Source of the DNA: Haliclystus octoradiatus
Taxonomy: Eukaryota > Cnidaria > Staurozoa > Stauromedusae > Haliclystidae
Direction of reading: 5' to 3'
Assembly (NCBI GenBank): GCA_916610825.1
Contig: OU744449.1
Coordinates: forward strand, 4,880,743-4,944,742
Length of the DNA stretch: 64,000 bases
In this document: one piece after another, positions 7,574-28,946 of the stretch
Layout: every line of letters begins with the position of its first letter
Position numbering within the stretch: position 1 is the stretch's first letter
Translations under genes and position numbers: made by a program
Notes under the pieces: generated by a model
Told to the model about the DNA's origin: nothing
Database searches by the model: none
What the model saw: only the letters and a program-made list of their open reading frames with translations

Positions 7574-9669
7574 TAGGGATGCACCGAATATTCGGCCGAC
7601 CGAATAATTAGCCACTATTCGGCCGTTTGGCCGAGTATTCTGTTAGTTCGAATATCAACCCATTATTCGGCCGGTATATTTTAAAAAGTTCAAAATTGAT
7701 CTCTCGAGTATTTATTTCATAATTATTTAGTAACAGTTCATCTTAATAACATAATTAGACATGAGTTGTGCTATTTAAATGTTCTATATGTTTCTTATTT
7801 TTTACTCAAATTCTCATAGTTTTGTGTGACTTGCGAATATTTTTAATGAAGCGTATCGAATATGAAGTGATTCAAATCATTCCAATCTAGCCTGCTCGCA
7901 GACTCACTGTCAAAATGTAAATTTGGTAAACAGTAGAGTCTGCTAACTCGAGGTCAAAAGCTTGCCTTTGCTGAATCAGCACCGGGCGTGGAAAGGTGTA
8001 AAACTATTGTCCTACAAGGGCTGTGATTCGACGCCAAGATTTTCTGGCGACGAATCGGCGAAGAGTATTTCAAAGAGAGGCTTGGTGGGCTAGACTGCAA
8101 TAACTCCCCTTCCTTGTCATTTTTCAGAAAACTTTATGCCTTTCGAAATCGTTTGGAACATTTGCGATAAACTTCAATGCCAAGAATTGAGAACTAATAT
8201 CATTTCCAAGACGTGTTAGAACCATTAACTGTCGTAATTCGGGTCGTAATTGTGTCAATTATTTTTAGTTATATCTCTGATTAGTCTCATAAATGTATGA
8301 AATGTTTTGGACAGCGTTTTTATTCAAAAGCTATTACAAGCGGAGAGGCGCGACACGAAAACAACATGGCAAGGAAAATTAATTCAACAAACAACAAACA
8401 CTTTAGTTCAGCCGCATTATTTAATGGCTATAGAAAGGAAGCTATTGTTGAGCCACTGTTTTTTGTCGTCTTCTTATTTTCATTATGATTACTCTATATT
8501 TGCTTCGTTCATTCGACAAAATAAGTCTATCACGCGGCTAATTCAAATTCGTAGCGGCTCAAGTTTAATTCCGATGGAGTATGAATTAATGCAGTAGACC
8601 ATTTGATCATTACTGATGTTACATTTGAATTTCAGATTTATTGAAAACTAGATATCTTCCCTAAAATTAATTGTGAAATATTAACTGTAAATGAGTTTCC
8701 AAGTAAATTAATAATATGATTGGAGTCGTTGATCTTTTTCTGGGCTTGACTTTCGTGGCCAAGCATTCTTAGCGAAAGCGAGGCAACCAATTTCCACGCC
8801 CCGTGCTGACTCAGCAAAGGCAAGCTTTTGTCTTCGAGTTGGCAGACTCTACTGTTTATCAAATTTACATTTTGACAGTGAGTCTGCGAGCAGGCTATTC
8901 CAATCTCGTTCCAAACCCTATTGTAAAATCTAATGTTAAAACAAAATTTTTTAACGTCTTTATCAATTTGAGTATTCTTCTCAAATAATTTAAACCGTTT
9001 TTCTTTCAGAAACTGTTCTTTGGAATGAAATAAACATTTTGTAAATCTAAAGGAACACGAATCACAACAAAATACTCGAAACCCAACAAGCCAGACTCAG
9101 AGCGTCTTTTTCGTGTTTGAATGGGCAACACAAATCCTCCTAATTAGCATAACAATGGGGCTCTCAAGTTACGCGCCATTGATCCTATTTTGGGCTTCCG
9201 TTGCTATGACAATTAATTGATCGAACAAACATGAGATTTGCAAATCGTTCGATTGATTTTGAACATCAACGAAGTTAATAAATATCTAATGTCAAACAGC
9301 AGTTTTAAATGATATTTCACTTGACATTATAACATTCAAACCAATGAAAGAACTGTAAAATCTTGACTTCTGATATTCAAAGAACTTTCTCCCTATTGTT
9401 TAAAATGTTTTGTTCGCCATTTCAAAGAAAATTGTGTTGCCATGACAACAGAAGATCGAGCTTTCAAAAACATTTTTCAAAACGTTAAATGAGGCAAAAT
9501 TACAATATCATCCGATGAAGAAAAGCCCATCTAACTGGCAGACAATATTCTGATATTTCCAGCATGCATAATAAACCAAACAAATCAATCTTAAATGACA
9601 ATAACAGATCAGGAATTGACTCGAAAATTGGCCGAATACTAGACTTTTCTGGCCGAATACCTGATTCGG
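7574..9669. mobile_element. hAT-type non-autonomous element, main part (second end at 26507)
   Basis: Starts TAGGGATGCACCGAATATTC and contains repeated ATTCGGCCG words at both ends. No transposase frame was found. There is no opposed end nearby: 9661-9669 (CTGATTCGG) runs straight into another element at 9670. The missing terminus, TAGGGATGCACCGAATCAG, is at 26507-26525 in the same orientation, consistent with later inversion of 12235-27374. The flank 7566-7573 (CATTTAGA) matches the reverse complement of 26499-26506 (CATTAGAC) apart from one base deleted. The 16-nt end TAGGGATGCACCGAAT is nearly the same as that of the intact hAT element at 43389-44233. Confidence 0.75.
7888..8897. mobile_element. 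TIR element (hAT-like MITE) nested in the hAT element
   Basis: Opposed termini TAGCCTGCTCGCAGACTCAC and its reverse complement; terminal repeats match for about 105 bp with few differences. It is flanked by TTCCAATC on both sides (7880-7887 and 8898-8905), an 8-bp duplication as for hAT elements. The interior (about 800 bp) has no convincing transposase frame. A shorter relative lies at 52009-52269. Confidence 0.88.
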
Positions 9670-12234
9670 GGCTTACTAAGGTTTGCGAAACGAAACGAAA
9701 CGAAATGAGATTCTTATTTATTAAAGATATCAATAAAATATTACATATTATTGTTAAATCAAACACAATATTTGTAAATTGCCAACTTATTTCATTATTA
9801 TCTTGTTTTAACTAGCAAAATTGGCAAACAGAAAAATGTAAAATATTGTTCATCTACGACGTGTTTTGTGGTATTCACCTCAATGCAACGCCGTGATCCG
9901 TGATAAGCTGTAAAACAAACAAGCCGAACAATCACGACAAATCACAACCTTCCTTCTTGCAAATTGAAAGCAAAAGAAGGCGGTCGTGTCTATGATTCAC
10001 TTGTCAAAATTCTGTATTTTTCGAGAATATCCTAGACTATTGACAGCGTTAGGAGATATTTTATTGAAACTACTGGTTATCTGTTGCAAACCTTGATTTT
10101 TAATTCTGAAAAGTATACTTCTTTCACAGAAAAATAGCAGTGCACCCTTTTTTCCTCTAGATGAAGGATGATTAATTATTGAATATAATATGGAATAAAT
10201 GCTAGAATGAAAGCTGGAAAAGGCGGTTATTAGCAGCACCATTATCGATGGCATCGATTGTTTTTCACTTTCTCGACTTTAAATATTTCTCACACTAAAA
10301 CAATAGCAATACGAGCAATACGATTCACTTCATTTCTTAGTATGTCATACTCCGACATGTATCAAAGCGATTGAAAAAATCTAGATAAAAAAATATCAAG
10401 TTTATATTTGGAAACAGCTGTTTAGGTTGGCCGAAGTGTGATTTCACGTCTTTCAGATTTCGAAAAAGCCGGTTTTTCACTTTCTCGACTTTAAATATTT
10501 CTCACACTAAAACGAGCAATACAATTCACTTCATTTCTTAGTATGTCCTACTCAGACATTTATTGAAATAATTAAAAAAAACTAGATGAAAAAATATCAA
10601 GTCTATATTTAGTAACAGCCATCTACGCTGTCCTATGTTTGATTTCACATCTTCTCAGATTTTGAAAAAGCTGGTTTTTCACTTTTTTCAACTTGGTAGG
10701 TCTTTCAAATGAGAACGAGGCGGGCTGATGACATGATATCACTCTATATGGCTCTCATACATGTGTATCGGATACAATTAAAAGGATTTCATTCAAATAT
10801 ATAACGTTTTTATTCAGATACAGCCGTTTAAGTTGATGTGGGGGGTATTAAATAGGATTTTCAAAATGCCGGTTTTCACTTTGTCCAACTTGCAGGTCTC
10901 TCAAATGAGCACGAGGCCAGCACATCATCCGTTATCGCTAGATATAGTTCTTAGATATATATCGAATTTAATTCAAAATGTTTCATTGTTATACATCTTA
11001 TCTATGTTTAGATACAGTCATTCAAGTTGTGATCTAGTTAGAATTTTAGGGGTTTTCAAAATGCCAATTTTTGACTTTCTCCAACTTGTAGGTCTTGTAC
11101 TATCCGAATGTATTTTTGGCGTTTGCCATTGGGAGTAGGCTCCGAAACTGATCTTTCGTTTGTTCATCCATTTCTGGCATTTTGATTCTTTAATGATTAT
11201 TGTATTTCCAATTAGACTGAATGGCATACCCTTTTTCTATGATTCTGTGTGACATTTTCAAAATTATAAGATTTTCAGGACTTCATGGGTACCAAATCGT
11301 TCCTCTTATCAATCAATCAACATTATATCCATCGAATTACAAACTTGTATTAATTCATTATCAATTTCCACTTACGTATGTATCAACCCAGTAGCCCATA
11401 TTTGCATGAGCATTGATGACACCAAATATATAATTTTAACTTGACTTTGTGACGAATTGATCTATCACAAATCAAAATCTTCTTGTATATTAACCATTAT
11501 GCACCTTTATGTATGCTTGGAATAAATATCAAAACGCTGGTATATGAATGAACCAACAATTATATGTAGAAATTTTCCATATACTTTGATACATTTGTGT
11601 TGAACAATATCTAGTGATATCTAATAATGTGCTGGCCTCCTTCTCATTTGAGAGACCTACAAGTTGGACAAAGTGAAATCCGGCATTTTCAATACCCTAT
11701 AAATACCCCCCATATCAACTTAAACAGCTGTATCTGAACAAAAACGTGATATATTTTCATGAAATCCTTCTACATGTATCCAATACACATGTAAGAGCCA
11801 TATAGAGCGATAGAAGTCATCGGCACGCCTTCTTTTCATTTGAGAGACCTACAATTAGTTGAAGAAGGGAAAAAGTGTCATTTTGAAAACCATAATTACC
11901 CTCAATATCAACTCAAATGGCTGTATCTGAATAAATGCAGGATTAGTTCTCATAAAATCTTTTGAATTATATCCAATACACATCATGTAAGAGCCATACA
12001 GAGCATAGATTATAGAATATTCTATAATCTATGCATAGAGCGATAGAAGGTCGCGTATGGATGGCCCTCATTCGTTCTGACTACCTGGGACACGAAAGTA
12101 GGGCGACAAGATTATAATTATACACTATTGTAACTTGGATAACATTAATTTGTTTAAATGATTGTATCAAGTCGGAAAGGATATGGGCAATTAATGGACA
12201 TTTGAATACGCTATCGTCATTGTGATTTTATACA
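9670..12234. mobile_element. Fold-back/MULE-like element, left 2.6 kb (rest at 26526-27374)
   Basis: Begins GGCTTACTAAGGTTTGCGAA followed by a (CGAAA)n stretch. The same end occurs at 26526 in the same orientation. Five direct ~200-bp tandem units start near 10261, 10473, 10675, 10873 and 11068, each marked by a GCCGGTTTTTCACTTT-like word. Two units in the opposite orientation follow near 11650 and 11845. Three more direct units lie at 26868-27290. If 12235-27374 is flipped back, the element has opposed ends, about five units per arm, total length about 3.4 kb, and a 9-bp duplication CTGATTCGG at 9661-9669 and 26517-26525. Nine-bp duplications with long repeat-built arms suggest a Mutator-like or fold-back type; no transposase was seen. 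Confidence 0.75.
12004..12033. repeat. Perfect 30-bp palindrome
   Basis: CATAGATTATAGAATATTCT plus TATAATCTATG read together as one uninterrupted self-complementary 30-mer centred on the AATATT core. It interrupts a ~200-bp unit of the fold-back element: the flanking words 'gccatacagag' and 'catagagcgatagaag' are continuous in the sister unit near 11800. Confidence 0.9.
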
Positions 12235-13140
12235 CCTGCCATTACTGAATGTTTTACAAACCACGAGGAGATGTCAAGAGACGCCATTATGGAAACATGT
12301 TGCGTCCCAGAAGGAGGCAAGAACTCGAGCACTGCCGATATCGTAGTAGAAGCAGATATTAATGTCAACGATTCAAACGTCCTCGCAAACCAGCAATCTA
12401 CAGAGTTAAGAGATGTTATAAATCTAATTCCAGTTATAACTAATTTACAAGCCGAAATTAAGAACATAAAACAACAACAACTGCTGATATCCCAACAAAA
12501 TGATTGTACTATTAAACAACTTCAAACTGAATTAAAATCGTTAAAAAACGAAATTACGCAATTAAAAGAGAAAAATCAACAGGTGACGACGAAAAGTTAC
12601 TCTTCAGCCTTAAAGTCTACTTTAAATGATGCAGCCCAAATAAATACTGCAGTAATACTAAAACAGGTGAACAAAGAACAAGCAATGCAGAAATATAAAG
12701 AGCATAATATAATAATCACAGGTTTAGAATGCCATACTGACAACAATTTGACTTCAGAAATCGTTGATGAAAAAATAGTGAGAGAAATTGCCGTTGATCT
12801 TGATGTTAATATCACATCTATCATGTTCAAAACGAAACGTGTGGGTAAGGAAGCAACAACTGCAAATGGAAAAACTCAAAAACTGATAGTTACATTAACA
12901 ACTGAGAAACGTTTAGAGTTACTTAAAAACGCAAGGAAATTGAGAACAAAAGCCCGGTGGTCAAATGTTTACTTGGGACCAGATCTCACTCGTGCTGAGG
13001 AAGAAGCGAACTATCTGCTACGCTGCAATTTACGGGAAAGACGGGAGCAAGAGCCAGAGAAACGGTTTTTAATAAAAAGAGGCGAAATTATAGAGTTTCA
13101 TGACAAAGTTTATGATGATGTCCCACAAATCTCCAATTGA
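12235..13140 (+). pseudogene. LINE copy 1 ORF1, 5' end removed
   Basis: Open from the breakpoint at 12235 to TGA at 13138-13140, about 301 codons. It lacks the first ~115 residues, which lie inverted at 27375-27718. The coiled coil and the L1-ORF1p-like RNA-binding and C-terminal regions match copy 2 with a handful of substitutions (for example Met for Lys in the 'TSIKFKTKR' segment). The next in-frame codon after the TGA is already part of ORF2. Confidence 0.85.
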
Positions 13141-15956
13141 CAACCAATAGTAGATCAAAATGAAATTGAATCAATTCAACCATCAAATATTTCTACTGCA
13201 CTATCATCAAGTAAAGTTGAGGTATCGATTTTATTATGGAATGTTGAAGGTCTAAATGGTATTTTGAATACATATCCTCATAATAAAATATTTAATCAAT
13301 CTATCATACTACTTACTGAAACATTTATAACATTATATCCAACAGAATTCCCCGATTACTATCAATTTATATCCCCTGCTAAACTACCTTCTGGAAATTC
13401 TAAGTGTCCCAGAGAAGGATTACTTATTCTCTGTAAAGGCTATCTAAATCCAATCGAAATAGGTTGCGGTAAAAGATGGATTGGTCTGACCACAGAATTT
13501 TTTAATATATTTTGTTTTTATTTCCCTCCCAAGAGTGACACTTCTTCTATTCTTGAGAAAATTACATCTATTTTATCCTCTATTAAGAACGATTTACAAA
13601 TGGTTATATGTGGAGATTTTAATTGCCGAACAGATTCATCAAGTAGAGGTAGATTTTTAATTGAAGGCTTATTTTTACTTGGTTTCTACATGATAAATGA
13701 CCCTTTCAAACCCACTTATATTGGACCTCATGGAAATAGTACAATCGACCTAATTTTTACCAACTTGCCCCCTTTTCATTTACATACCCATTTTATTACA
13801 ACTGAAATTCACAGAAAACATCAACCAGTTCAAACAAATTTTAACTTTTTTTCGGAAAATCCTCCAGCCGAAGAATATTGCAAACCAAATCTAAAGCGCA
13901 CTGTCAACGTAGAATTATTAACTGATCATCCGATGCTTAAAAGTGCCACAACTAATCTGCATAATAATAACATTGACGAATCTCTGCTCTGCATCGAAAA
14001 AGCATTAATTGATTGTTGTCCAGTTTATAACTTTAAACCCAATTTTCACAAGCCATGGTTTGATGAAGAATGCAGAGAAATTAAGTCATTTACTATGTCG
14101 CTACTTAACAATATCAAAGAGCAGCCAACAAATGTAATTATTCGAAAACAGTATATGAATTCTAGAATAAAATACAAGAAATTGATAAAGGAGAAAAAGC
14201 ATAATCACACAGAACGATCAATTTGTGACATTTTGGAAAAAGTTAATAAAAAGCCATGGTTACTATTTACTAAACAAACAAATCAATTTTCTGCTCCAAT
14301 TCCGATCTCTACCCTTTCAACCCATTTCAAATCTCTGCTTGATCCAAATAACAAGCCTCCAGAGCTCAATTTCGATGATATTGACGTGATTAATTTGATT
14401 TTAGACTCAAACAATTTACCTTGGTACAACCACTTATTTACTGAGGAAGAAGTTTTAGAAACAATTCTCAAAACATCAACGAAGAAATCCCCTGGCTTAG
14501 ATAATATTACTAATGAACATTTGTATTATTCCCTGGATATTTTACTTCCTTTCTGGACACAACTGTTTAATCTATGTTTGAAATCTGGCTGTATACCTTC
14601 TCGATGGAGAGATTGTATATTTAAATTATTATATAAAGGAAATGGTTCTGCGCAAGATCCGAATAACTACCGTGGTATTGCCCTTCTCTGTTGTCCCTTG
14701 AAGGTCCTGACCTCATTGCTAAATTTGCGATTAAAGACAAATATTTTCAATCTCATTCCATCAGGACAATATGGATTTCAAGAGGGTAAAAACACTTTGA
14801 TGCCATTATCTATTTTAATTGAAGATATTTATTCTCAATTCTCTTTCTCATATAAATCAACCTACTGCACTTTCATTGACTTCAATAAAGCATTTGACGT
14901 CGTCAATCGAGAAATATTGTTTGCTAAGTTGAAAGATCAATTTGGTATCGATGGTTTAACTTTAAAATTAATTGGTGGTCTCTTGCAAGGAAACTTTATT
15001 CGTATTCACGATGGTATCAGAATCTTTGATTCTATTCGACAAAACCAGGGTGTTGCACAAGGTGACAGTTTATCTCCAACTTTATTTCTGTTATACATCG
15101 CCGATCTAGCAAATAATTTAAAAGCAGTGCATAACCTTAAATATTTATTCTTTGCTGATGATCTGGCAATTTATTCGACCGATCGTAATATACTCCAGCA
15201 TGGAATCGACTTAGTTTCTACATGGTGCAAGTCCAATGTACTCCAAGTAAATCTAAAGAAAACCAACGTTATGAAATTTCGTAAAGGTGGTCGTTTGGCT
15301 AAAGATGATTATTTTACTTACCGCGGTCAAGCTGTAGCATTTTCGAAATCATATACTTATCTTGGTGTTACACTCCAGACCTCTTTGTCATTTACAGAGC
15401 ATATTTCAAAGAAAAAACAAAAGTTTGCTATAGCTATTGGCTTAATTAAACATTTGAGGCGACTTTCAATCAAATCAGCTATAGAAATATTTGAAATGAA
15501 TTTATCTCCGATAATTACATATGGTTTTGAGGTTATTGGCCCTTATCTCTCGTTATCAAACTTGTTTGAACTCAACAAATTAAAAGCTCAGTACTTCAAA
15601 CGTGTTTTAGGTGTGTCTGCCTATTCGTCAAACACATTGGTTTATTTATTTTCAAATGTATCACCATATACTACTGATTTGAATTTACGATATAATTTAA
15701 ACTCCAACCTAATTGAAAACGTATTAAATATTACACAATCTAAGCTAAAATCCAGATTAGAAAGTGATCACCAATATGCTCCAGTCCTAGAGTCAAATGG
15801 ATGGATGATGTCAAACAAAGTAAACAGGCATTTTATAACCAGGCTGTCAATGCATGGGTTTCATCATCTAATTTGCCTGACAAATGGATTTCACAAGCCA
15901 ACTGATGAATGCATATGTAAAAAATGTGGCTCATCTGCATCATATCTATACCATAT
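13141..15956 (+). pseudogene. LINE copy 1 ORF2 (endonuclease-reverse transcriptase), cut by L2
   Basis: Same frame as ORF1, directly after its TGA. It is open for about 938 codons, with endonuclease (WNVEGLNG, LLTETF, CGDFN) and reverse transcriptase (FIDFNKAFD, GVAQGDSLSP, FADDLAIY). The L2 insertion after 15956 removes the last residues, including the final His and Cys of the C-terminal zinc knuckle; the original end resumes at 18806. Otherwise the frame is undamaged, which implies recent activity. It keeps the more usual SLSP where copy 2 has SLSQ. Confidence 0.88.
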
Positions 15957-18805
15957 TAAAACTAAAACAATTAATCGTCAATAATTTTAGATCGTTTGAA
16001 ATGATGGAATTTAGCCTACCCTGCTCTGATATGACCACCCTTAGAATTCTATTGGTTTATCGCCCCCTACCTTCAGCTACTAATTGTCTATCGCCTTCTC
16101 TATTTTTGGATGAATTTTCTACGCTGCTAGAAGCTTTAGTTATTTCAACAGGACGCTTATTAATTGTTGGGGACTTCAATATTCACGTTGATAACAAATC
16201 TGATACCCTTTCGGTAAAGTTTTTAGATTTATTAGACTCGTTTAATCTCTATCAACATGTTGATGCTGCTACTCATAGAAGTCAACATACTCTTGATCTA
16301 TTTATAACTCGTAAAGATGAAATGTTTATTAACAATATTATTATCCACGATCCAATCATATCAGACCATCTAGCATTACACTGCACTCTTTCGCTTAAAA
16401 AACCTCGAAATGAAAAATGTTACATATCATACCGTAATCTAAAGAAAATTGACTATGAAACGTTTTATAATGATCTTCAAGACTCTAGCTTATTATCATC
16501 ACCTACAGCTCATTCCAATCCTGTTGATGCCCTGCATGAGTATGATAAAAATCTCTCTGAACTACTTGATAAACATGCACCATTGAAGAGTCGTCTAATT
16601 ACTGTTCGTCATAATTCTCCTTGGTATTCCAATAATATAGCAATTCAAAAGAACATTAGACGAAAACTTGAACGTCGCTGGAGACACAGCAAACTTTCTG
16701 TTGACAGAGATGCTTATGCTGATCAATGTCATTTTGTCAATAATATGATATGCCAAGCAAAAATGGATTATTACTCAACAATAATCAATGAATGCAAACA
16801 TGACCAGAAGCAATTGTTCAAAAACGTTTCTAAGGTTTTATGTTTAAAATCGACTAGTAACTTACCCACCTTTAGTTCTACTGATGTTCTTACAAACAAA
16901 TTTTCAGACTTTTTCCATGACAAGATTGTTAATATCAGGAACACACTACCTATTCCTGCAACCATCGAAATACTCGAAAACCTTTATTGTGGTCAAACTG
17001 AATTCTTACATTTTACTGCAGTATCTGAAAGTCAACTTTCTAGGCTGATTGGTTCGTCAGGTTCAAAGTCATGTATAATTGACCCTATTCCAGCTACAGT
17101 GTTGAAGAAATGTTACCCTATTCTCTTGCCTAACATCACTAAGATTGTTAACCTTTCTCTAGCATCATCCACTGTTCCAGATGCTATGAAGATTGGTGCT
17201 CTTTCTCCATTACTCAAGACGCCCTCTTTAGACTTCGAACAATTCAAGAACTTTAGACCGATATCAAACCTCACTTTTATCTCAAAATGTACTGAAAAAG
17301 CAGTTGCCTTTCAACTCAACGAACATCTTCATAACAATAACCTGAATGAACTATTCCAGTCTGCCTATAAGAAACATCATAGTACAGAAACAGCACTTCT
17401 TCGTGTTCAAAATGAAATCTTACGAGCACTTGATAGTCGAAGTTCTGTAATTCTACTCCTTTTAGATTTGTCTGCTGCATTTGACACTGTTGACCATCAG
17501 ATTCTATTATCACGACTATCATCCAGATTTGGAATTAAAGGTGCAGCTTTACAATGGTTTAAATCGTATCTCACTGATCGGAAGCAGTTTGTGCATATAA
17601 ATGATTCAAGATCTTCAATTAAAAAACTACACTGTGGAGTACCCCAAGGATCTGTCCTCGGACCAATTCTGTATCTTTTGTACACTTCCCCTATTGGTGA
17701 TATCCTACGGAAGCATAATATTCCATTTCATTTGTATGCTGATGACACCCAATTATTTGTTACTTTTAAACCCTCTGTTGATGGTGAAATTCAGTCTGCC
17801 ATTCATCAAATAGAAACTTGTGCTGCTGAAATTGATTCTTGGATGTCTGTTAATAAGTTAAAACTTAACAAAGATAAAACTGAACTTATACATCTTACTT
17901 CCCGTTTCAGTCACTATCCAACAAAGTTTAATATCAACTTTAGTGGTGAATACATCGCTCCTACTTTATCTGCACGTAATATTGGTGTTATTTTTGATAA
18001 AGATTTGTCAATGGTTGAACATATTAATTCAGTTTGCAAGTCATCTTTTTACAATCTACGTCGTATTTCGAAAATTAGAAGGTACCTTGATATGGGGACA
18101 ACCAAGATTTTAGTCCATGCATTTATTACATCAAAATTGGACAATTGTAACTCCCTATATTATGGTCTACCAAAATATCTAATAAAGAAATTACAACGCA
18201 TTCAAAATGCAGCAGCTAAACTTGTAATGTGCGCTAACAAATATGATCATGTATCACCTCTTTTATATTCACTTCATTGGCTTCCAGTTGAGCAACGCAT
18301 CATCTTCAAAGTTTTATTATTGACTTACAAATGTTTACATAATCTTGCTCCGAATTATTTGAAAGAACTTTTAACTCCTTACAAACCTCAACGCTGTCTT
18401 CGATCATCATCAGAAACTTTATTAACTGTAGTTTCAAGCAATTTAAAATCCTATGGAGATAAGGCATTTTCAGTGACGGCACCTATTTTGTGGAACAAGT
18501 TACCGGAAGTAGTTAGATGTAGTGCATCACTAGATGTGTTCAAAAGTAAATTGAAAACACATTTGTTTTGTGTAGCTTTTGGCAGTTAATAACTCAACTT
18601 TATTTTATTGACACTATATTTTAGGCACATAAATGTGTATTAATCATTATCGTTTACTTTTACTTTTTAATTTTACTAAAGTTCGAAACTAATATGATGT
18701 TAATTGTAAATTTTTATTTATTTTTTTTTACACTTAGATATTGTAAAGCGCTTAGAGCAAATGATATAGGCGCTATAAAAATTTATTATTATTATTATTA
18801 TTATT
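15957..18805 (+). mobile_element. L2-clade LINE, 5'-truncated, inserted into LINE copy 1
   Basis: Inserted between ATAT (15953-15956) and ATAT (18806-18809), a 4-bp duplication of the target as judged from intact copy 2. The 3' end carries the hallmark of L2 LINEs: a stem 'AAAGCGCTTAGAGCA ... GGCGCTATAAAAAT' followed by an (ATT)n tail at 18781-18805. The 5' end is truncated inside the endonuclease domain. Confidence 0.93.
15959..18589 (+). CDS. L2 endonuclease-reverse transcriptase, N-terminally truncated
   Basis: An uninterrupted frame of 876 residues ending in TAA at 18587-18589. Endonuclease remnants are LLIVGDFNIHVD (near residue 70), TLDLFITR and SDHLALHCTL. The reverse transcriptase has FRPISNLTFISKCTEK, QSAYKKHHSTETALLRV, LLLDLSAAFDTVDH, GVPQGSVLGPILYLLYT and the catalytic YADDTQLF near residue 592. 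The C-terminal 'LHWLPVEQRIIFK' block is typical of the clade. There are no stops or frameshifts, so the insertion is young; without its N-terminus and promoter it is not autonomous. This is a fragment of the original ORF, so no start codon is assigned. Confidence 0.93.
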   Translation, partial: KLKQLIVNNFRSFEMMEFSLPCSDMTTLRILLVYRPLPSATNCLSPSLFLDEFSTLLEALVISTGRLLIVGDFNIHVDNKSDTLSVKFLDLLDSFNLYQHVDAATHRSQHTLDLFITRKDEMFINNIIIHDPIISDHLALHCTLSLKKPRNEKCYISYRNLKKIDYETFYNDLQDSSLLSSPTAHSNPVDALHEYDKNLSELLDKHAPLKSRLITVRHNSPWYSNNIAIQKNIRRKLERRWRHSKLSVDRDAYADQCHFVNNMICQAKMDYYSTIINECKHDQKQLFKNVSKVLCLKSTSNLPTFSSTDVLTNKFSDFFHDKIVNIRNTLPIPATIEILENLYCGQTEFLHFTAVSESQLSRLIGSSGSKSCIIDPIPATVLKKCYPILLPNITKIVNLSLASSTVPDAMKIGALSPLLKTPSLDFEQFKNFRPISNLTFISKCTEKAVAFQLNEHLHNNNLNELFQSAYKKHHSTETALLRVQNEILRALDSRSSVILLLLDLSAAFDTVDHQILLSRLSSRFGIKGAALQWFKSYLTDRKQFVHINDSRSSIKKLHCGVPQGSVLGPILYLLYTSPIGDILRKHNIPFHLYADDTQLFVTFKPSVDGEIQSAIHQIETCAAEIDSWMSVNKLKLNKDKTELIHLTSRFSHYPTKFNINFSGEYIAPTLSARNIGVIFDKDLSMVEHINSVCKSSFYNLRRISKIRRYLDMGTTKILVHAFITSKLDNCNSLYYGLPKYLIKKLQRIQNAAAKLVMCANKYDHVSPLLYSLHWLPVEQRIIFKVLLLTYKCLHNLAPNYLKELLTPYKPQRCLRSSSETLLTVVSSNLKSYGDKAFSVTAPILWNKLPEVVRCSASLDVFKSKLKTHLFCVAFGS

Positions 18806-19057
18806 ATATCGTAAATTGTGAAGCTATTAAATCTTACGTTCAATTTGTAAGCAATATAGAGAGTTAAAAATAATTTATAATAGTTAAAAAGTTAAATAAG
18901 ATTAATAAATAAATATTACATACATATTCTTCCTTTAAATAGCAAACTGCTGGCAACTTACTCATATCAAATTATTAATTGGAAACAGCAACAAAAAAAA
19001 AATGCACAATGTACATAACACTAACAAATTTGCTCAGAATAAGAGCGTAAATATATA

Positions 19058-19414
<357 letters not shown>

Positions 19415-19637
19415 CGATTTTTTTATGGCGGTCAGACATGTTTTGATTTGCACGTAAAAATTTCTAGAGAAACTATTATACACTTGCTTTTATCACATTA
19501 TTATTGAAAGAAAATACATGCGATTCAAAGGTGTGCTTAACACTGGATTTTAACAACATCAATTAAACAAATTACATATATTATATTAAGATAAGATACA
19601 ATTTCAGTTGCTTACCGGTCGTCACAGGAGCGTAAAC

Positions 19638-20885
19638 ATGTCGTCCGAAGAGATTACGACAACAATATTGTCAAGTAACAAACGTTTGGGTAAGGAAATA
19701 AGTTTATCTTTCAACACATCAGATCCTCATAGTTGGAAAAAGATGGTTCTGGTGTATTTCCCAGCGAATGGGTTCTTTATCGACGAAGATTTGAATGCAA
19801 ACATAACCCAGAGAGACGAAGGCAGTGGCAGCCGATCTACTATAGAGCACTCAACAGTTGTGAATATCTGCAGGGACATACACCACAAGAAGAAGTATCT
19901 TTCATTCAAGTTTCGGTCATCTGGTAGAGTAACTGTGTCCAACATTGTAGGCTTGCAAGACTTTTCTAGCTTACACTTCCCTGCCATTACTGAATGTTTT
20001 ACAAACCACGAGGAGATGTCAAGAGACGCCATTATGGAAACATGTTGCGTCCCAGAAGGAGGCAAGAACTCGAGCACTGCCGATATCGTAGTAGAAGCAG
20101 ATATTAATGTCAACGATTCAAACGTCCTCGCAAACCAGCAATCTACAGAGTTAAGAGATGTTATAAATCTAATTCCAGTTATAACTAATTTACAAGCCGA
20201 AATTAAGAACATAAAACAACAACAACTGCTGATATCCCAACAAAATGATTGTACTATTAAACAACTTCAAACTGAATTAAAATCGCTAAAAAACGAAATT
20301 ACGCAATTAAAAGAGAAAAATCAACAGGGGACGACGAAAAGTTACTTTTCAGCCTTAAAGTCTACTTTAAATGATGCAGCCCAAATAAATACTGCAGTAA
20401 TACTAAAACAGGTGAACAAAGAACAAGCAATGCAGAAATATAAAGAGCATAATATAATAATCACAGGTTTAGAATGCCATACTGACAACAATTTGACTTC
20501 AGAAATCGTTGATGAAAAAATAGTGAGAGAAATTGCCGTTGATCTTGATGTTAATATCACATCTATCAAGTTCAAAACGAAACGTGTGGGTAAGGAAGCA
20601 ACAACTGCAAATGGAAAAACTCAAAAACTGATAGTTACATTAACAACTGAGAAACGTTTAGAGTTACTTAAAAACGCAAGGAAATTGAGAACAAAAGCCC
20701 GGTGGTCAAATGTTTACTTGGGGCCAGATCTCACTCGTGCTGAGGAAGAAGCGAACTATCTGCTACGCTGCAAATTACGGGAAAGACGGGAGCAAGAGCC
20801 AGAGAAACGGTTTTTAATAAAAAGAGGCGAAATTATAGAGTTTCATGACAAAGTTTATGATGATGTCCCACAAATCTCCAATTGA
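19638..20885 (+). CDS. LINE ORF1 protein (RNA-binding chaperone-like)
   Basis: 415 residues from the first ATG (19638-19640) to TGA (20883-20885). The N-terminal ~120 residues are of unknown fold. A heptad-rich coiled coil spans about residues 183-230 (LQAEIKNIKQQQLLISQQND, then LQTELKSLKNEITQLKEK). Next comes an RRM-like segment around HNIIITGL and KLIVTLTTEKRLELLKNARK, and a basic C-terminal domain (VYLGPDLTRAEEEANYLLR). This order matches L1-type ORF1p, which forms trimers and coats LINE RNA. It shares frame with ORF2 and is separated from it by the stop codon only. The ATG is preceded by a 225-nt 5' UTR. Confidence 0.9.
   Translation: MSSEEITTTILSSNKRLGKEISLSFNTSDPHSWKKMVLVYFPANGFFIDEDLNANITQRDEGSGSRSTIEHSTVVNICRDIHHKKKYLSFKFRSSGRVTVSNIVGLQDFSSLHFPAITECFTNHEEMSRDAIMETCCVPEGGKNSSTADIVVEADINVNDSNVLANQQSTELRDVINLIPVITNLQAEIKNIKQQQLLISQQNDCTIKQLQTELKSLKNEITQLKEKNQQGTTKSYFSALKSTLNDAAQINTAVILKQVNKEQAMQKYKEHNIIITGLECHTDNNLTSEIVDEKIVREIAVDLDVNITSIKFKTKRVGKEATTANGKTQKLIVTLTTEKRLELLKNARKLRTKARWSNVYLGPDLTRAEEEANYLLRCKLRERREQEPEKRFLIKRGEIIEFHDKVYDDVPQISN
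20883..20885 (+). other. In-frame TGA between LINE ORF1 and ORF2 (candidate readthrough site)
   Basis: The codon after ...CAAATCTCCAAT is TGA, followed by CAACCAATAGTAGAT in the same frame, and the frame then stays open for 957 codons. The arrangement is identical at 13138-13140 in copy 1. The first in-frame ATG of ORF2 is about codon 154, beyond endonuclease residues that are normally essential. Confidence 0.8.
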
Positions 20886-23759
20886 CAACCAATAGTAGAT
20901 CAAAATGAAATTGAATCAATTCAACCATCAAATATTTCTACTGCACTATTATCAAGTAAAGTTGAGGTATCGATTTTATTATGGAATGTTGAAGGTCTAA
21001 ATGGTATTTTGAATACATATCCTCATAATAAAATATTTAATCAATCTATTATACTACTTACTGAAACATTTATAACATTATATCCAACAGAATTCCCCGA
21101 TTACTATCAATTTATATCCCCTGCTAAACTACCTTCTGGAAATTCTAAGTGTCCCAGAGAAGGATTACTTATTCTCTGTAAAGGCTATCTAAATCCAATC
21201 GAAATAGGTTGCGGTCAAAGATGGATTGGTCTGACCACAGATTTTTTTAATATATTTTGTTTTTATTTCCCTCCTAAGAGTGACACTTCTTCTATTCTTG
21301 AGAAAATTACATCTATTTTATCCTCTATTAAGAACGATTTACCAATGGTTATATGTGGAGATTTTAATTGCAGAACAGATTCATCAAGTAGAGGTAGATT
21401 TTTAATTGAAGGCTTATTTTTACTTGGTTTCTACATGATAAATGACCCTTTCAAACCCACTTATATTGGACCTCATGGAAATAGTACAATCGACCTAATT
21501 TTTACCAACTTGCCCCCTTTTCATTTACATACCCATTTTATTACAACTGAAATTCACAGAAAACATCAACCAGTTCAAACAAATTTTAACTTTTTTTCGG
21601 AAAATCCTCCAGCCGAAGAATATTGCAAACCAAATCTAAAGCGCACTGTCAACGTAGAATTATTAACTGATCATCCGATGCTTAAAAGTGCCACAACTAA
21701 TCTGCATAATAATAACATTGACGAATCTCTGCTCTGCATTGAAAAAGCATTAATTGATTGTTGTCCAGTTTATAATTTTAAACCCAATTTTCACAAGCCA
21801 TGGTTTGATGAAGAATGCAGAGAAATTAAGTCATTTACTATGTCGCTACTTAACAATATCAAAGAGCAGCCAACAAATGTAATTATTCGAAAACAGTATA
21901 TGAATTCTAGAATAAAATACAAGAAATTGATAAAGGAGAAAAAGCATAATCACACAGAACGATCAATTTGTGACATTTTGGAAAAAGTTAATAAAAAGCC
22001 ATGGTTACTATTTACTAAACAAACAAATCAATTTTCTGCTCCAATTCCGATCTCTACCCTTTCAACCCATTTCAAATCTCTGCTTGATCCAAATGACAAG
22101 CCTCCAGAGCTCAATTTCGATGATATTGACGTAAATAATTTGATTTTAGACTCAAACAATTTACCTTGGTACAACCACTTATTTACTGAGGAAGAAGTTT
22201 TAGAAACAATTCTCAAAACATCAACGAAGAAATCCCCTGGCTTAGATAATATTACTAATGAACATTTGTATTATTCCCTGGATATTTTACTTCCTTTCTG
22301 GACACAACTGTTTAATCTATGTTTGAAATCTGGCTGTATACCTTCTCGATGGAGAGATTGTATATTTAAATTATTATATAAAGGAAATGGTTCTGCGCAA
22401 GATCCGAATAACTACCGTGGTATTGCCCTTCTCTGTTGTCCCTTGAAGGTCCTGACCTCATTGCTAAATTTGCGATTAAAGACAAATATTTTCAATCTCA
22501 TTCCATCAGGACAATATGGATTTCAAGAGGGTAAAAACACTTTGATGCCATTATCTATTTTAATTAAAGATATTTATTCTCAATTCTCTTTCTCATATAA
22601 ATCAACCTACTGCACTTTCATTGACTTCAAGAAAGCATTTGACGTCGTCAATCGAGAAATATTATTTGCTAAGTTGAAAGATCAATTTGGTATCGATGGT
22701 TTAACTTTAAAATTAATTGGTGGTCTCTTGCAAGGAAACTTTATTCGTATTCACGATGGTATCAGAATCTTTGATTCTATTCGACAAAACCAGGGTGTTG
22801 CACAAGGTGACAGTTTATCTCAAACTTTATTTCTGTTATACATCGCCGATCTAGCAAATAATTTAAAAGCAGTGCATAACCTTAAATATTTATTCTTTGC
22901 TGATGATCTGGCAATTTATTCGACCGATCGTAATATACTCCAGCATGGAATCGACTTAGTTTCTACATGGTGCAAGTCCAATGTACTCCAAGTAAATCTA
23001 AAGAAAACCAACGTTATGAAATTTCGTAAAGGTGGTCGTTTGGCTAAAGATGATTATTTTACTTACCGTGGTGAAGCTGTAGCATTTTCGAAATCATATA
23101 CTTATCTTGGTGTTACACTCCAGACCTCTTTGTCATTTACAGAGCATATTTCAAAGAAAAAACAAAAGTTTGCTATAGCTATTGGCTTAATTAAACATTT
23201 GAGGCGACTTTCAATCAAATCAGCTATAGAAATATTTGAAATGAATTTATCTCCGATAATAACATATGGTTTTGAGGTTATTGGCCCTTATCTCTCGTTA
23301 TCAAACTTGTTTGAACTCAACAAATTAAAAGCTCAGTACTTCAAACGTGTTTTAGGTGTGTCTGCCTATTCGTCAAACACATTGGTTTATTTATTTTCAA
23401 ATGTATCACCATATACTACTGATTTGAATTTACGATATAATTTAAACTCCAACCTAATTGAAAACGTATTAAATATTACACAATCTAACCTAAAATCCAG
23501 ATTAGAAAGTGATCACCAATATGCTCCAGTTCTAGAGTCAAATGGATGGATGATGTCAAACAAAGTAAACAGGCATTTTATAACCAGGCTGTCAATGCAT
23601 GGGTTTCATCATCTAATTTGCCTGACAAATGGATTTCACAAGCCAACTGATGAATGCATATGTAAAAAATGTGGCTCATCTGCATCATATCTATATCATA
23701 TCGTAAATTGTGAAGCTATTGAATCTTACATTGATTTTGTAAGCAGTATAGAGAGTTGA
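20886..23759 (+). CDS. LINE ORF2 protein (APE endonuclease and reverse transcriptase)
   Basis: 957 codons from the base after the ORF1 stop to TGA at 23757-23759. The endonuclease starts with SILLWNVEGLNG (near residue 30) and LLTETF (near 58), then CGDFNCRTD (about 157) and the NSTIDLIFTN block. RT motifs: NNYRGIALLCCPLKVL, QYGFQEGKNTLMPL, TFIDFKKAFDVVNRE, NQGVAQGDSLSQTLFLLYI and FFADDLAIYS (catalytic DD near residue 672), with a thumb region YLGVTLQTSL. A CX2C...HX3-4C knuckle (CICKKCGSS ... YHIVNC) lies near 923-940. No ATG lies before codon ~154, so the true start is unclear: readthrough of the TGA, re-initiation, or the TTG near 21009. Only one stop interrupts the whole 1,373-codon frame. 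Confidence 0.9.
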   Translation, partial: QPIVDQNEIESIQPSNISTALLSSKVEVSILLWNVEGLNGILNTYPHNKIFNQSIILLTETFITLYPTEFPDYYQFISPAKLPSGNSKCPREGLLILCKGYLNPIEIGCGQRWIGLTTDFFNIFCFYFPPKSDTSSILEKITSILSSIKNDLPMVICGDFNCRTDSSSRGRFLIEGLFLLGFYMINDPFKPTYIGPHGNSTIDLIFTNLPPFHLHTHFITTEIHRKHQPVQTNFNFFSENPPAEEYCKPNLKRTVNVELLTDHPMLKSATTNLHNNNIDESLLCIEKALIDCCPVYNFKPNFHKPWFDEECREIKSFTMSLLNNIKEQPTNVIIRKQYMNSRIKYKKLIKEKKHNHTERSICDILEKVNKKPWLLFTKQTNQFSAPIPISTLSTHFKSLLDPNDKPPELNFDDIDVNNLILDSNNLPWYNHLFTEEEVLETILKTSTKKSPGLDNITNEHLYYSLDILLPFWTQLFNLCLKSGCIPSRWRDCIFKLLYKGNGSAQDPNNYRGIALLCCPLKVLTSLLNLRLKTNIFNLIPSGQYGFQEGKNTLMPLSILIKDIYSQFSFSYKSTYCTFIDFKKAFDVVNREILFAKLKDQFGIDGLTLKLIGGLLQGNFIRIHDGIRIFDSIRQNQGVAQGDSLSQTLFLLYIADLANNLKAVHNLKYLFFADDLAIYSTDRNILQHGIDLVSTWCKSNVLQVNLKKTNVMKFRKGGRLAKDDYFTYRGEAVAFSKSYTYLGVTLQTSLSFTEHISKKKQKFAIAIGLIKHLRRLSIKSAIEIFEMNLSPIITYGFEVIGPYLSLSNLFELNKLKAQYFKRVLGVSAYSSNTLVYLFSNVSPYTTDLNLRYNLNSNLIENVLNITQSNLKSRLESDHQYAPVLESNGWMMSNKVNRHFITRLSMHGFHHLICLTNGFHKPTDECICKKCGSSASYLYHIVNCEAIESYIDFVSSIES

Positions 23760-23949
23760 AATAATTTATAATAATTAAAAATTAAAGTTAAATAAGATAA
23801 ATAAAATAAATATTACATACATACTCTTCCTTTAAATAACAAACTGCTGACTACTTACTCATATAGAATTATTAATAAAAAACAGCAAAAAACGCATAAT
23901 GTACATAACACTAACAAATTTGCTCAGAATAAGAGCGTAAATATATATC

Positions 23950-24092
<143 letters not shown>

Positions 24093-24205
24093 GAAATATT
24101 TAATTTTTTGATTTCGTTATACTGAGTAGCAACAAATAAAACACACAATAATCTGCAACAATTCATCAATTCAATAATTTATTCTAAAATCATCATCAGG
24201 CAAGT

Positions 24206-24207
<2 letters not shown>

Positions 24208-24238
<31 letters not shown>
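24208..24238. repeat. (GA)n microsatellite
   Basis: About 15 uninterrupted GA dinucleotides. Confidence 0.95.
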
Positions 24239-24239
<1 letters not shown>

Positions 24240-24388
24240 ATGTTTTTTTGGTATTGATTGTCAAAAAATTAAGTACCTTCATTTAATACAATACTATCAG
24301 ATGCTATAATTGCTCTTTCAAAAAATTGGTGTTAATAAAGGCCATGATCGAAGGAGGATAGTATTAATATTTTTCTGAGATCCAGTTA

Positions 24389-24605
24389 GGCTATGGTTAA
24401 ACGGCGTATTTTGAGCTAAAATAATGCAGGAGTATTTTATTTGAGCCTTATTTACGCCTAAAATATGCCTGGAGAACGCCTTATAGCGCGCATTAGATAC
24501 CCCTGTGGCATTTTAATCGGTTAAAATGCCAAAATACACCTTGGCTAGGCGTATTTAAATGCAAATACGCCTTTGAACTATGCAGGCGAAAATGAAGGAG
24601 GAAAA
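24389..24605 (+). repeat. Dispersed repeat, 'GGCTATGG...GGCGTATT' family, copy B
   Basis: Starts TTAGGCTATGGTTAAACGGC and shares GAGCTAAAATAATGCAGG and TTTACGCCT with copy A at 6391. Internal words AATACGCC and GGCGTATT face each other, suggesting a MITE with subterminal inverted repeats. Copies A and B have different right parts. Confidence 0.5.
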
Positions 24606-24627
24606 AATGCCATCCTTGCTAATCCCA

Positions 24628-26155
24628 GTGTTGTGAGAATTACTTGAAAAAGTAATTAATTAGATTACAAATTATTTTTACCAAAAATTCAAAAATTACA
24701 TTACTAATAGACCAATTCGGCTAATGCGTCACGTGACCTGAATGCGGTGTTTGGGTTCTTCAACAACAGAAAGCAATGGTCTCGCGCAACTATTTTTCTC
24801 GCATATTCCTCTTCGTAATTTGCTCTTAAATTTAGTATTTAAATGATTTATGGGAAACTGAAGATGGATTCAAGTAGTTCAAGACCCAATAAAAACGCCT
24901 GGGACCTTAAAATTTATATATCGGTACTCCATCATCGTCAATTATTCCATCAAAAAGTGGCATTTCTTGAAATATTTATTGTGTCTACAATTTCAATTCA
25001 AAAACAAAACTATTTTTGTTGTTGTTGTTTTTTGATTTGATGATATATGATGATGGTATCCAGCATATTTAATGTAATGAACAAAAAAAATCATTATTTT
25101 ACGATCAATATGGCATGTACAGTAGAATTATAGAGTTGATCGTAAACATAGCTGATGACGTAGAACACAGAACTCCATGCGTTTTCAAACATTGAGATGT
25201 GCCGCGCCGTAAAGAAAAAACTAAAACAACATGGCAATTTATAACTGAAGATTATAACATAACATTGAAAAAAATAGATTCCTAGCTTTTCAAATGAACA
25301 ATATAAACATACAACAGTCCTATTTATAGGGAAGGTAATATAAATGAGCAACACAAGTCATTTTAATGAATCGATCAAATCAGAGTTTTGTGAAATTTTC
25401 ATCAAAGCCCTCGCTGTTAGTTCTTCGTAAAACATATCTTTTCTGCTAACAAATGTACATAGAAGACTTCTACATACCATAAATACACTTTCTAAGTCAT
25501 AAATGCTTGGTATTTTATTTAAATAAGCAAAGATTAGTTTGGTTTCAATGCTTCAAAACATCACAAATCATGACATTTTTTCATTCCAAATTTCATAGTC
25601 AATGTACGTAATTTTTCATTATAACAAAACAATATTAAAATCTTTCCAATTCATACTGCATTTTCATCTCCAGTTTACCTTGGCTTGTTTGTTTTTCACT
25701 GTAGTCTATCAAATGCTTTCAAACTATGTTTCAAAATCCATCAACATTTCAGTTCCAATTTTACGGTCATCCAGACATCTACAGCGATCAAAGTTGGTGC
25801 AGCTTCTCTTTAAATAAAGCTTCATCACTCCAAATCGACAGAAAATCTTTTACACACGTCGAATAATACCCCTCCAAATACTACATATTGGACATTTCAA
25901 CTAAATAGGTATTTTAAAATATGTTTCATGAGATCCATAAAAGTACGACTTTCTTGTAAAACAACAAGGCGCGAAAGGACGTTTGCTTGTGAAAGCGCAT
26001 AGTCCCGCATCTGGGTCACGTGATCAGAAAATTGAAGAGTTAGCCGATTTGGTCTATTACTTTTCCGAGGAAAGTAATTAATTACAAATTACTTCGCCGA
26101 AAAAGTAATTAATTACTAATTACTTTGTTACTTTTGGAATATTTGTCAAAACATT
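24628..26155. mobile_element. GTAATTAATTAC-type hAT MITE, split by another element
   Basis: The left half, 24628-24705, starts CAGTGTTGTGAGAATTACTT; the right half, 26059-26155, is rich in AAGTAATTAATTAC. Removing 24706-26058 joins the halves into the usual GTAATTAATTAC-rich short hAT element also seen at 7149. Confidence 0.55.
24706..26058. mobile_element. 1.35-kb TIR element nested in the hAT MITE
   Basis: Opposed ends AATAGACCAATTCGGCTAA and TTAGCCGATTTGGTCTATT (16 of 19 match), with GTCACGTGA words just inside both ends. The apparent target duplication is ACT (24703-24705 and 26059-26061), 3 bp; a TA-based duplication cannot be excluded. No transposase frame is visible inside. Confidence 0.65.
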
Positions 26156-26506
26156 TATGTCTGTAAAGATTCAAAATTATATGTATTTTAGGCTAGACAG
26201 GAAGCGTTTATTATAATATGTTTACTGTCTGTAGCTGAACCATAGTCAAACAACATTGAAATATTCAAAACTTTGAACGATCAAACAATAAATATACGCA
26301 TGTAAAATAGAAATTATAAAATAAATAAACTTTTTCCGAATAGTTCGGTCAAATTAATGTGATTAATCTCAGTGTCAATTTTTGTGTTTATACATTATTT
26401 TTTCTAGCGAAAAATTGTTGCAAAGATTATGTTTTTCATCAATGAAATATCATATTATTCATTCATAAGTCAAAAAATTTATGTGTTTTTGTCATCAAGT
26501 CTAATG

Positions 26507-26525
26507 TAGGGATGCACCGAATCAG
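26507..26525. mobile_element. Detached terminus of the hAT element at 7574
   Basis: TAGGGATGCACCGAATCAG, same orientation as the end at 7574, so the two cannot be the ends of one element in the present order. Positions 26517-26525 are also one copy of the 9-bp duplication CCGAATCAG of the fold-back element. It pairs with the 7574 end once 12235-27374 is inverted. Confidence 0.75.
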
Positions 26526-27374
26526 GGCTTACTAAGGTTTGCGAAACGAAACGAAACGAAACGAAACGAAACGAGATTCTTATTTATTAAAGACATTAAT
26601 AAATTATTACATAATATAGAATTGTTTTGTTAACTAAACAACATTTCATCCAAATTATCGTGTTATGACTTGATTTTCTAAGTTAAAAAGCAAAAACTTA
26701 CATATTTTCAAAACGGCGTAAATCCTTGTGTTTACCACGCGGTCATCTAAATTCGGCGCCGTGATCAGCTGTGGTACAAAGTACACAGTAATTGCGTCAG
26801 CCTCGGTCTTCGTTGAAGCCACTGTTGAAGCTGACAGAACTTCGAAGTTCGATTTTACAGATTTTGGAAAAGCCGGTTTATACCTACCCTTTCTGTAACT
26901 ATTCGGTCTCTCGAATTATATAGAGATACCCAGAGCACTAGGTACAACTAGATATTGTTCTCAGACAAATATTGAATAAAATTTAGATAACAATAAATAT
27001 TATAGCCATTGAGGTTGACAGATGGGCTAAGAGAGGGGGGTTAGTTCGATATTTCGAAAAAGCCAGTTTTTAAATTTCTCCAACTTGTAGGTCTCTCAAA
27101 ATTATATTGAGACAGAACACAATTTATCATTAGATATGGTTCTCAGAAATTTATCGAATTTAATTGAGGAAAGTAGATGAAAATTATCCAGTCAATATTT
27201 AACAATTGTAGCAATCAAAGTTGACAGAGGGGGCTCAGAGAGGGGTTATTTCGAGATTATCAAAAAAAAAAACAGATTTTTCACATTCTGCAATTATATA
27301 TATAAAGTCTCTCCAATCAAATTATGTATGTATTTATTTACAAGTCATTACATCATTTTATGTATTCAAATAAT
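26526..27374. mobile_element. Fold-back/MULE-like element, detached arm
   Basis: Starts GGCTTACTAAGGTTTGCGAA and (CGAAA)n like 9670, and follows the same order of blocks (GAGATTCTTATTTATTAAAG, then ~200-bp units near 26868, 27058 and 27267). It ends abruptly at 27374, where an inverted LINE fragment begins with no sequence typical of either element's end. Confidence 0.75.
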
Positions 27375-27718
27375 GGGAAGTGTAAGCTAGAAAAGTCTTG
27401 CAAGCCTACAATGTTGGACACAGTTACTCTACCAGATGACCGAAACTTGAATGAAAGATACTTCTTCTTTTGGTGTATGTCCCTGCAGATATTCACAACT
27501 GTTGAGTGCTCTATAGTAGATCGGCTTCCACTGCCTTCGTCTCTCTGGGTTATGTTTGCATTCAAATCTTCCTCGATAAAGAACCCATTCGCTGGGAAAT
27601 ACACCAGAACCATCTTTTTCCAACTATGAGGATCTGATGTGTTGAAAGATAAACTTATTTCCTTACCCAAACGTTTGTTACTTGACAATATTGTTGTCGT
27701 AATCTCTTTGGACGACAT
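27375..27718 (-). pseudogene. LINE copy 1 ORF1, detached N-terminal part
   Basis: ATG at 27718-27716, then about 114 codons identical to copy 2 except for a few changes (Lys for Glu in SSKEITT, Glu for Asp in FIEEDLN, Gln for His in DIHQKK). The frame leaves the LINE at 27375 and ends a few codons later in unrelated sequence. Confidence 0.88.
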
Positions 27719-27940
27719 GTTTACGCTCCTGTGACGACCGGTAAGCAACTGAAATTGTATCTTATCTTAATATAATATATGTAATTTGTTTAATTGATGT
27801 TGTTAAAATCCAGTGTTAAGCACACCTTTGAATCGCATGTATTTTCTTTCAATAATAATGTGATAAAAGCAAGTGTATAATAGTTTCTCTAGAAATTTTT
27901 ACGAGCAAATCAAAACATGTCTGACCGCCATAAAAATAGA
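27375..27940 (-). mobile_element. LINE copy 1, inverted 5' fragment
   Basis: On the minus strand it matches LINE copy 2 from its 5' end (TTTTATGGCGGTCAGACATG near 19424) through the 5' UTR to codon ~115 of ORF1 (…SSLHFP). The homology stops at 27375, exactly the point where the copy at 12235 begins. There is no overlap beyond one or two C residues and no gap, so the two pieces together make one complete LINE. Confidence 0.9.
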
Positions 27941-28000
27941 TCGATAGATAGATAGATAGATAGATAGATAAATAAATAAATAAATAACTAAATAGATAGA

Positions 28001-28044
<44 letters not shown>

Positions 28045-28045
28045 C
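27941..28045. repeat. (GATA)n/(AATA)n microsatellite
   Basis: Reverse-strand equivalent of (TATC)n and (TTTA)n, immediately upstream of the 5' end of the LINE fragment. It shows that copy 1 was flanked by TATC-type microsatellite on its 5' side as well. Confidence 0.93.
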
Positions 28046-28133
28046 AAATAAATGGCTGGTAAATAGGTTTTATACATCGAAGGGGTGCTTGTTTCAAACT
28101 GCCTGTGATGGCACACGGTCTTTGCCAACAAAA

Positions 28134-28946
28134 GAATATTCAATTCTTGGAAAACGAGAAAATGTTTTCCTGTTTGGTTCGCGCATGCGCGTCGTTGAAT
28201 TGGTAGAATTTGTTTTCCAGAATGTTCATTCGCGAACAATAGAGCATGGGTGAAGTTATTTCGAAAACTATTATAGTTATAGATAATAATATAGAAAATT
28301 CAGCTATTGTATCAAGATTTCATTTATGTTGGAATATTTAGACTAAAACAAAACAAAATTATTTCGTAGCATTGCAAAAGTACAACAGTACTATTATACC
28401 ATACGTTCGTTAAAAGAAAAATGATAGTCATTACAAAAGTATTGAGGTTTTCTACTTTTCATATAGATCAACTATATACAATTATACACCAGACGTATTG
28501 ATTGGTAAACTCCCTCTAATTAAATGTGTACCGATATAGTAATTTAGATACACTTACCTTCGGGTGTTAGCTATGTATAAACCATGGTTAAACTTTGCAG
28601 TCTTTGAAGAGTTCGCTGTTCGTTCAAACTTAAGGGAAACGCTACATTTCTAAATCTCACTTGTAAAAATAATCTACAGAATAAAAACAAATATATATAT
28701 TTAGTAATTAGTATGAGCTTCGATGTCTTGGTGCAGGCTCTAGCAACTGAAACAACATTTCTTTTCGCATCCACAACTCTTCTCGCTCCGTTTCTACCAT
28801 TCAGACGATGAAATGTCATATGTGGAGATTGGATTCTTGGAAAACGAGAACATTTCCAATCAGGTTGGATTGCGCATGCGTTTGGCAATGTGTCACATTT
28901 TTGTATTGTTACATGGTTACATTATATGTTTTCCAGAATGTCCGGT
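28134..28946. repeat. Two copies of a short repeat (TTCTTGGAAAACGAGAA...TTTTCCAGAATG)
   Basis: Copies at about 28134-28226 and 28831-28941 share TTCTTGGAAAACGAGAA at one end, a central GCGCATGCG, and GTTTTCCAGAATG at the other. The ends are imperfect inverted repeats. Ends and duplications are not resolved; the ~600 bp between the copies holds nothing I recognise. Confidence 0.5.

Follow-up and report, generated by a model that had tools for sequence, protein, structure and literature searches.

In Drosophila, breakage at non-homologous sequences has been presented as one of two major mechanisms of inversion (PMC6861252), and inversions of Drosophila buzzatii have been attributed to the fold-back-like element Galileo, which would generate them through ectopic recombination (PMC2775673). 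Another foldback element, Tetris of Drosophila virilis, is described with target-site duplications (TSDs) of 8-10 bp (PMC4079207). We analysed a window of 64,000 nucleotides (C5:4880743-4944742) belonging to a genome of 262 Mb in 33 contigs. In the copy of the locus carried by the window (hereafter W), the segment of about 15.1 kb between 12235 and 27374 appears to have been flipped after mobile elements had landed in it, and we consider a derived inversion to be the probable explanation (probability about 0.88). The reality of the flip is very likely: a nearby and near-identical second copy (hereafter U), located at about 4806-4851 kb of the same contig, 56-72 kb upstream, keeps the unflipped order without those mobile elements. 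In kind this is known biology, namely a small inversion with both breakpoints within mobile elements, and the case is a well-resolved young example and not a new kind of inversion. A further Drosophila study reportedly also deals with inversions having breaks at non-homologous sequences.

As in the Drosophila inversions outlined in PMC6861252, the breakpoints observed here lie in unrelated sequence, so they do not reflect recombination between repeats; unlike those inversions, as far as that account goes, the segment measures only 15 kb, both breaks are in mobile elements and the un-inverted order is present on the same contig. A fold-back-like element at an inversion breakpoint is a feature shared with the Galileo inversions. 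In the latter, according to the description in PMC2775673, two copies in opposite orientation are involved and are chimeric with exchanged TSDs, whereas here one fold-back is broken internally and its TSD pair is unexchanged; no two inverted copies of one element with exchanged TSDs were found at the breakpoints. With Tetris, as portrayed in PMC4079207, the fold-back of W has in common its internally repetitive inverted arms, the lack of any ORF of at least 150 aa within the element and a 9-bp TSD, a likeness of structure. The interest of the locus is that, for a young inversion, a single assembly provides the exact breakpoints, the two arrangements and the insertion sites in their empty state, so that the relative order of several events follows, and that it shows a route to spotting an inversion in sequence rich in transposable elements, starting from the elements that the inversion has cut.

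The relationship between the two copies was established by genome searches with one query on each side of the right breakpoint. The query outside the segment (28060-29600) has one further near-full-length match, C5:4836250-4837782 on the plus strand, and the query inside it (24100-26500) has one as well, C5:4833438-4835849 on the minus strand; both are located about 72 kb upstream and their relative orientation is opposite to that in W. The inside query also matches many copies of a 1.35-kb repeat (at least 48 matches listed), which are irrelevant to the inversion. The fetched part of U (4820743-4844742) is collinear with W from a point left of the window up to 9672, except for three W stretches that are missing from it (3211-3601, 5894-7607 and 8956-9032). 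Beyond that point come 26526 to 23953 as their reverse complement, an (AATA)n tract at the position of the LINEs of W, and the sequence from 27934 onward, the fold-back and the LINEs being absent. At the empty fold-back site U reads ...GGCCGAATACCTGATTCGGTGCATCCCTA-CATTAGAC..., with CTGATTCGG present once. This arrangement is what flipping 12235-27374 predicts, and the segment is thus reversed relative to an ancestral-type order. The comparison with a second copy had been set beforehand by a first-pass annotation of the window, which had proposed the flip, and U shows both the order and the empty sites that it anticipated. In aligned blocks, the divergence between U and W ranges from 0 to 18 substitutions per kb.

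Table 1. Features of copy W, in window coordinates.
Feature	Position	Strand	Evidence
Inverted segment	12235..27374	.	Order in copy U and continuity of relatives across the breakpoints
hAT-like element, from its left end up to where the fold-back inserted; flank of 8 bp, CATTTAGA, at 7566-7573	7574..9669	+	TIR TAGGGATGCACCGAAT; in U minus the left 34 bp
Fold-back TSD, copy 1, CTGATTCGG	9661..9669	+	Single copy at the empty site in U
Main part of the fold-back: left terminus, ~200-bp units and centre, plus some of the right arm	9670..12232	+	Self-comparison, fold-back relatives
Left junction filler CA	12233..12234	.	Comparison with 25 fold-back loci
LINE copy 1, from the middle of ORF1 almost to the end of ORF2	12235..15956	+	99.25% to 19980-23701 over 3722 bp
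Other-family LINE with endonuclease and reverse transcriptase, inserted in LINE copy 1; (TTA)n at its end	15957..18801	+	RVT_1 6.8e-32, Exo_endo_phos_2 6.7e-7; interrupts the copy-1 match
LINE copy 1, 3' end, then (ATCT)n	18802..19055	+	90% to 23694-24091
LINE copy 2, situated within the (ATCT)n tail belonging to copy 1; ORF1 (19608-20885) and ORF2 (21009-23759) both open	19412..23950	+	RVT_1 4.6e-31 in ORF2
Right terminus of the hAT, at present oriented like the left one; flank GTCTAATG at 26499-26506	26507..26525	+	W/U comparison, genome pattern search
Fold-back TSD, copy 2, CTGATTCGG on the minus strand	26517..26525	-	W/U comparison
Fold-back, terminal part of right arm	26526..27368	-	Fold-back relatives, termini comparison
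Filler at the right junction, minus-strand ATTATT	27369..27374	.	Comparison with fold-back relatives
LINE copy 1, 5' part cut off by the inversion	27375..27946	-	Reverse complement of 19412-19981, 98.8%

Self-comparison of the window reproduced the layout given by the first-pass annotation (Table 1). As it had stated, LINE copy 1 starts in the middle of ORF1 at 12235 and its 5' part lies on the minus strand at 27375, the two parts matching the intact copy at 99.25% and 98.8%. Undoing the inversion makes LINE copy 1 whole and places it head to tail with LINE copy 2, the two being separated by (ATCT)n. The LINE assignment is in agreement with the endonuclease and reverse transcriptase domain matches in ORF2. 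The two fold-back ends at 9670 and 26526 do have the same orientation (83.7% identity over 92 bp); once the segment is flipped, the element shows inverted terminal repeats and internal tandem units, and its TSD CTGATTCGG becomes, as claimed, a perfect 9-bp pair, present twice in W and once in U at this locus. The count of about five 200-bp units per arm holds roughly, about 4-5 being discerned by eye to the left of the centre and about 2 plus 2-3 to the right. The name fold-back is a putative one, resting on termini, arm structure and TSD length and not on a transposase. Its empty site occurs exactly in U and at 2 further places in the genome, and, when up to 3 mismatches were allowed, the uninterrupted, fold-back-free hAT end was found at 22 genome sites, against none with a reversed control pattern.

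The element hosting the fold-back, which we take to be a hAT from its TIRs and TSD length and not from a transposase, is common to U and W and contains no ORF of at least 150 aa in 7574-9669. Its TIRs TAGGGATGCACCGAAT at 7574 and 26507 also have the same orientation, and the proposed 8-bp duplication is imperfect, the flanks CATTTAGA and CATTAGAC matching only with one indel (4/8 position by position), which speaks somewhat against the flip. Both ends of this family were present in 9 of 22 loci with the exact TIR patterns used and indicate a TSD of 8 bp, which by eye is perfect in 6 of the 9, agrees at 7/8 in two and at 6/8 in one. The idea of three nested elements therefore needs revision: the fold-back is nested in the hAT, and the LINE is a separate insertion into a microsatellite, with two further LINEs.

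The continuity of related elements through the breakpoints was then considered. Among the fold-back relatives (best 40 of 190 candidates scored, 30 loci fetched, with a query ending at the right junction), 25 of the 30 loci run contiguously through the breakpoint, and 23 of these are letter-identical at the joint, where GATTTTATA is followed directly by TGAATACAT. The remaining five comprise the window itself, three loci missing one side (L034, L035 and L038) and the diverged locus L036, in which both sides are present and about ten bases are absent at the joint. The LINE is continuous across its breakpoint in all seven loci fetched besides the window, each reading GCTTACACTTCCCTGCCATTACTG.

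In W the left joint reads GATTTTATA-CA-CCTGCC and the right joint, on the minus strand, CTTCCC-ATTATT-TGAATAC. The fold-back has lost 0 bp at its break, and the LINE cytosines corresponding to 19980-19981 are found on both sides. The sharing of one or two C noted earlier is thus accounted for by these two LINE cytosines, to which has to be added that the fillers CA and ATTATT lie at the joints. No other match crosses the left joint among the 88 listed (best 40 of 139 candidates). The lack of breakpoint homology beyond the two Cs, the small loss and the fillers of 2 and 6 nt are in agreement with end joining, as the first-pass annotation had suggested from breakpoints in LINE ORF1 and in the fold-back interior. 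Two double-strand breaks followed by end joining with the middle piece reversed would best explain these junctions; a homology-driven exchange is at odds with breakpoints in sequences that have no relation to each other, and the action of a transposase on element ends is at odds with breakpoints that are internal. Templated fillers, a signature of polymerase theta, find no support: the longest template matches are 5 and 6 nt, and random fillers did equally well in 62% and 46% of cases (1500 trials each).

The fold-back break falls in a hairpin loop closed by a perfect stem of 7 bp, as do 1.8% of the positions of the element (6.2% at stem 6, 14.7% at stem 5 and 0.6% at stem 8); it lies outside any loop at stem 8, and none of the loops with stems of 5, 6 or 7 contains the LINE break. 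The stem threshold was considered after the fact, which makes the hairpin result a hint only. It could be imagined that one fold-back is enough to seed an inversion, no second copy being required: its AT-rich arm, which forms hairpins, would have broken at a hairpin loop and been end-joined to the LINE break, while the ancestral order persists beside it or on a sister haplotype; we regard this scenario as doubtful. If the ancestral order is on a sister haplotype, the inversion would still be segregating.

The first-pass annotation had left open whether the flip is an inversion or a misassembly, in which the segment would have been inserted backwards and the un-inverted order would be true for W too. 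The region is repeat-rich and its neighbouring copy is 97-99.8% alike, which makes it hard to assemble. We nevertheless favour an inversion, because there is no homology beyond the two Cs, no N at the joints and no element base lost; indeed no N occurs in the window or in the fetched regions L071-L074, L076 and L077. Moreover, the short fillers present at both joints are absent from the relatives compared, and both elements are complete, hence two matching false joins would be needed. Since U has neither the fold-back nor the LINEs, its reads could presumably not have templated the joints. An assembly error is on these grounds improbable.

Ectopic recombination between inverted copies of one element, a process carried out by fold-back-like Galileo elements in Drosophila buzzatii according to the work cited (PMC2775673), would have to be reconciled with breakpoints lying in a fold-back and in a LINE, whose sequences are unrelated, and with a fold-back TSD that forms, once un-inverted, an unexchanged pair matching the empty site in U; it is very improbable here. 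The reversal of the 5' part of the LINE relative to its 3' part could also recall an insertion with 5' inversion (twin priming) without any chromosomal inversion. The two parts are, however, 15 kb apart, the same flip displaces the fold-back and hAT ends, and U shows the order directly, which leaves this explanation with next to no credibility. The same holds for a rearrangement driven by a transposase through alternative transposition of fold-back or hAT ends: both DNA elements do stand at one side of the inversion, but the breakpoints are inside the fold-back arm and LINE ORF1 and not at element termini. Recombination between the LINE 5' inverted repeats at 19412-19981 and 27375-27946 was also tried as a candidate and rejected, flipping that interval restoring neither element.

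Taken together with the W/U comparison, the inversion could be placed in a succession of events. A hAT-like element beside an (AATA)n tract was present in the ancestor of U and W, as it is found in both. In W, the hAT end would then have received the fold-back and the microsatellite tract the LINE; another copy of that LINE would have inserted into the (ATCT)n tail of the first, and a LINE of another family into the first LINE. The fold-back, LINE copies 1 and 2 and the other-family LINE are present in W only and absent from U, and we infer from TSD, tails and empty sites that these four insertions were gained by W. Double-strand breaks in the right arm of the fold-back and in LINE ORF1 would have been rejoined with the middle reversed and with fillers of 2 and 6 nt, presumably by end joining, at the junctions observed. 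Since the fold-back and LINE copy 1 are both cut by the inversion, it is younger than at least these two insertions.

The LINE family adjoins a (TATC/ATCT)n microsatellite in both window copies (19056-19358, 23950-24092 and 27934-28050), and such repeats occur within 120 bp upstream of the match in all seven further LINE loci (L002-L008; at least 88 matches listed). The family is possibly microsatellite-targeted; a non-exhaustive search of the literature found no (GATA)n-specific LINE family.

U and W are neighbouring, near-identical copies of at least 44 kb as sampled (C5:4806312-4850700 and C5:4862759 to window position 42229), each with its own mobile elements. U extends from 4806312 or further left to 4850700, which corresponds to window position 42229, and W from 4862759, the match of 4806312, or further left. 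On the right, window 36200-41280 matches C5:4844673-4849752 and the match continues to 42229; for window 42630-43385, no near-identical second copy was found among the best 40 of 1710 candidates. A 16-kb query for the extent of the duplication was dominated by repeats and uninformative (best 38 of 9148 candidates, the window itself not being among the matches listed). The gap between U and W consists at most of a U-specific LINE, 1.76 kb unread (4860743-4862499) and 0.26 kb unplaced. This LINE starts at about 4850701 and is interrupted at 4853669-4860308 by an LTR element, whose ends are identical over 367 bp and which has TCAAC on either side. For U, a tandem duplicate and a retained second haplotype are about equally probable; a contig end would explain somewhat more easily the high-copy LINE found right where the U homology stops. 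If the copies are haplotypes, the inversion and the insertions would be live polymorphisms open to PCR typing; in the case of tandem duplicates, the locus illustrates the speed at which two copies diverge through mobile elements.

Other differences between the copies were observed. In place of 5894-7607, found in W only, U carries about 12-14 nt of other sequence and hence has no hAT left end, a replacement that is perhaps another end-joining scar at the locus. The minus-strand frame at 3000-4250, open over 416 aa in W, is frameshifted in U, where 391 bp are missing; taking this gap and that at the hAT left end together, about 12-15 nt replace the missing sequence. The frame matches no Pfam family, and a search for homologues at E <= 0.001 was negative. 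Because this frame is open in W, the absence of the hAT left end and of the 391 bp would represent losses in U and not gains in W. About 1.6 kb of U (C5:4817547-4819176) separates two matches that adjoin each other in W, and about 300 bp at 34168-34469, single in W, form a tandem pair in U. The window also contains a tandem array at 1287-2034, with imperfect copies at 66-bp and other offsets, and, at the right edge of the U/W homology, a palindromic repeat of about 1.3 kb (41294-42621) that is repeated in the genome.
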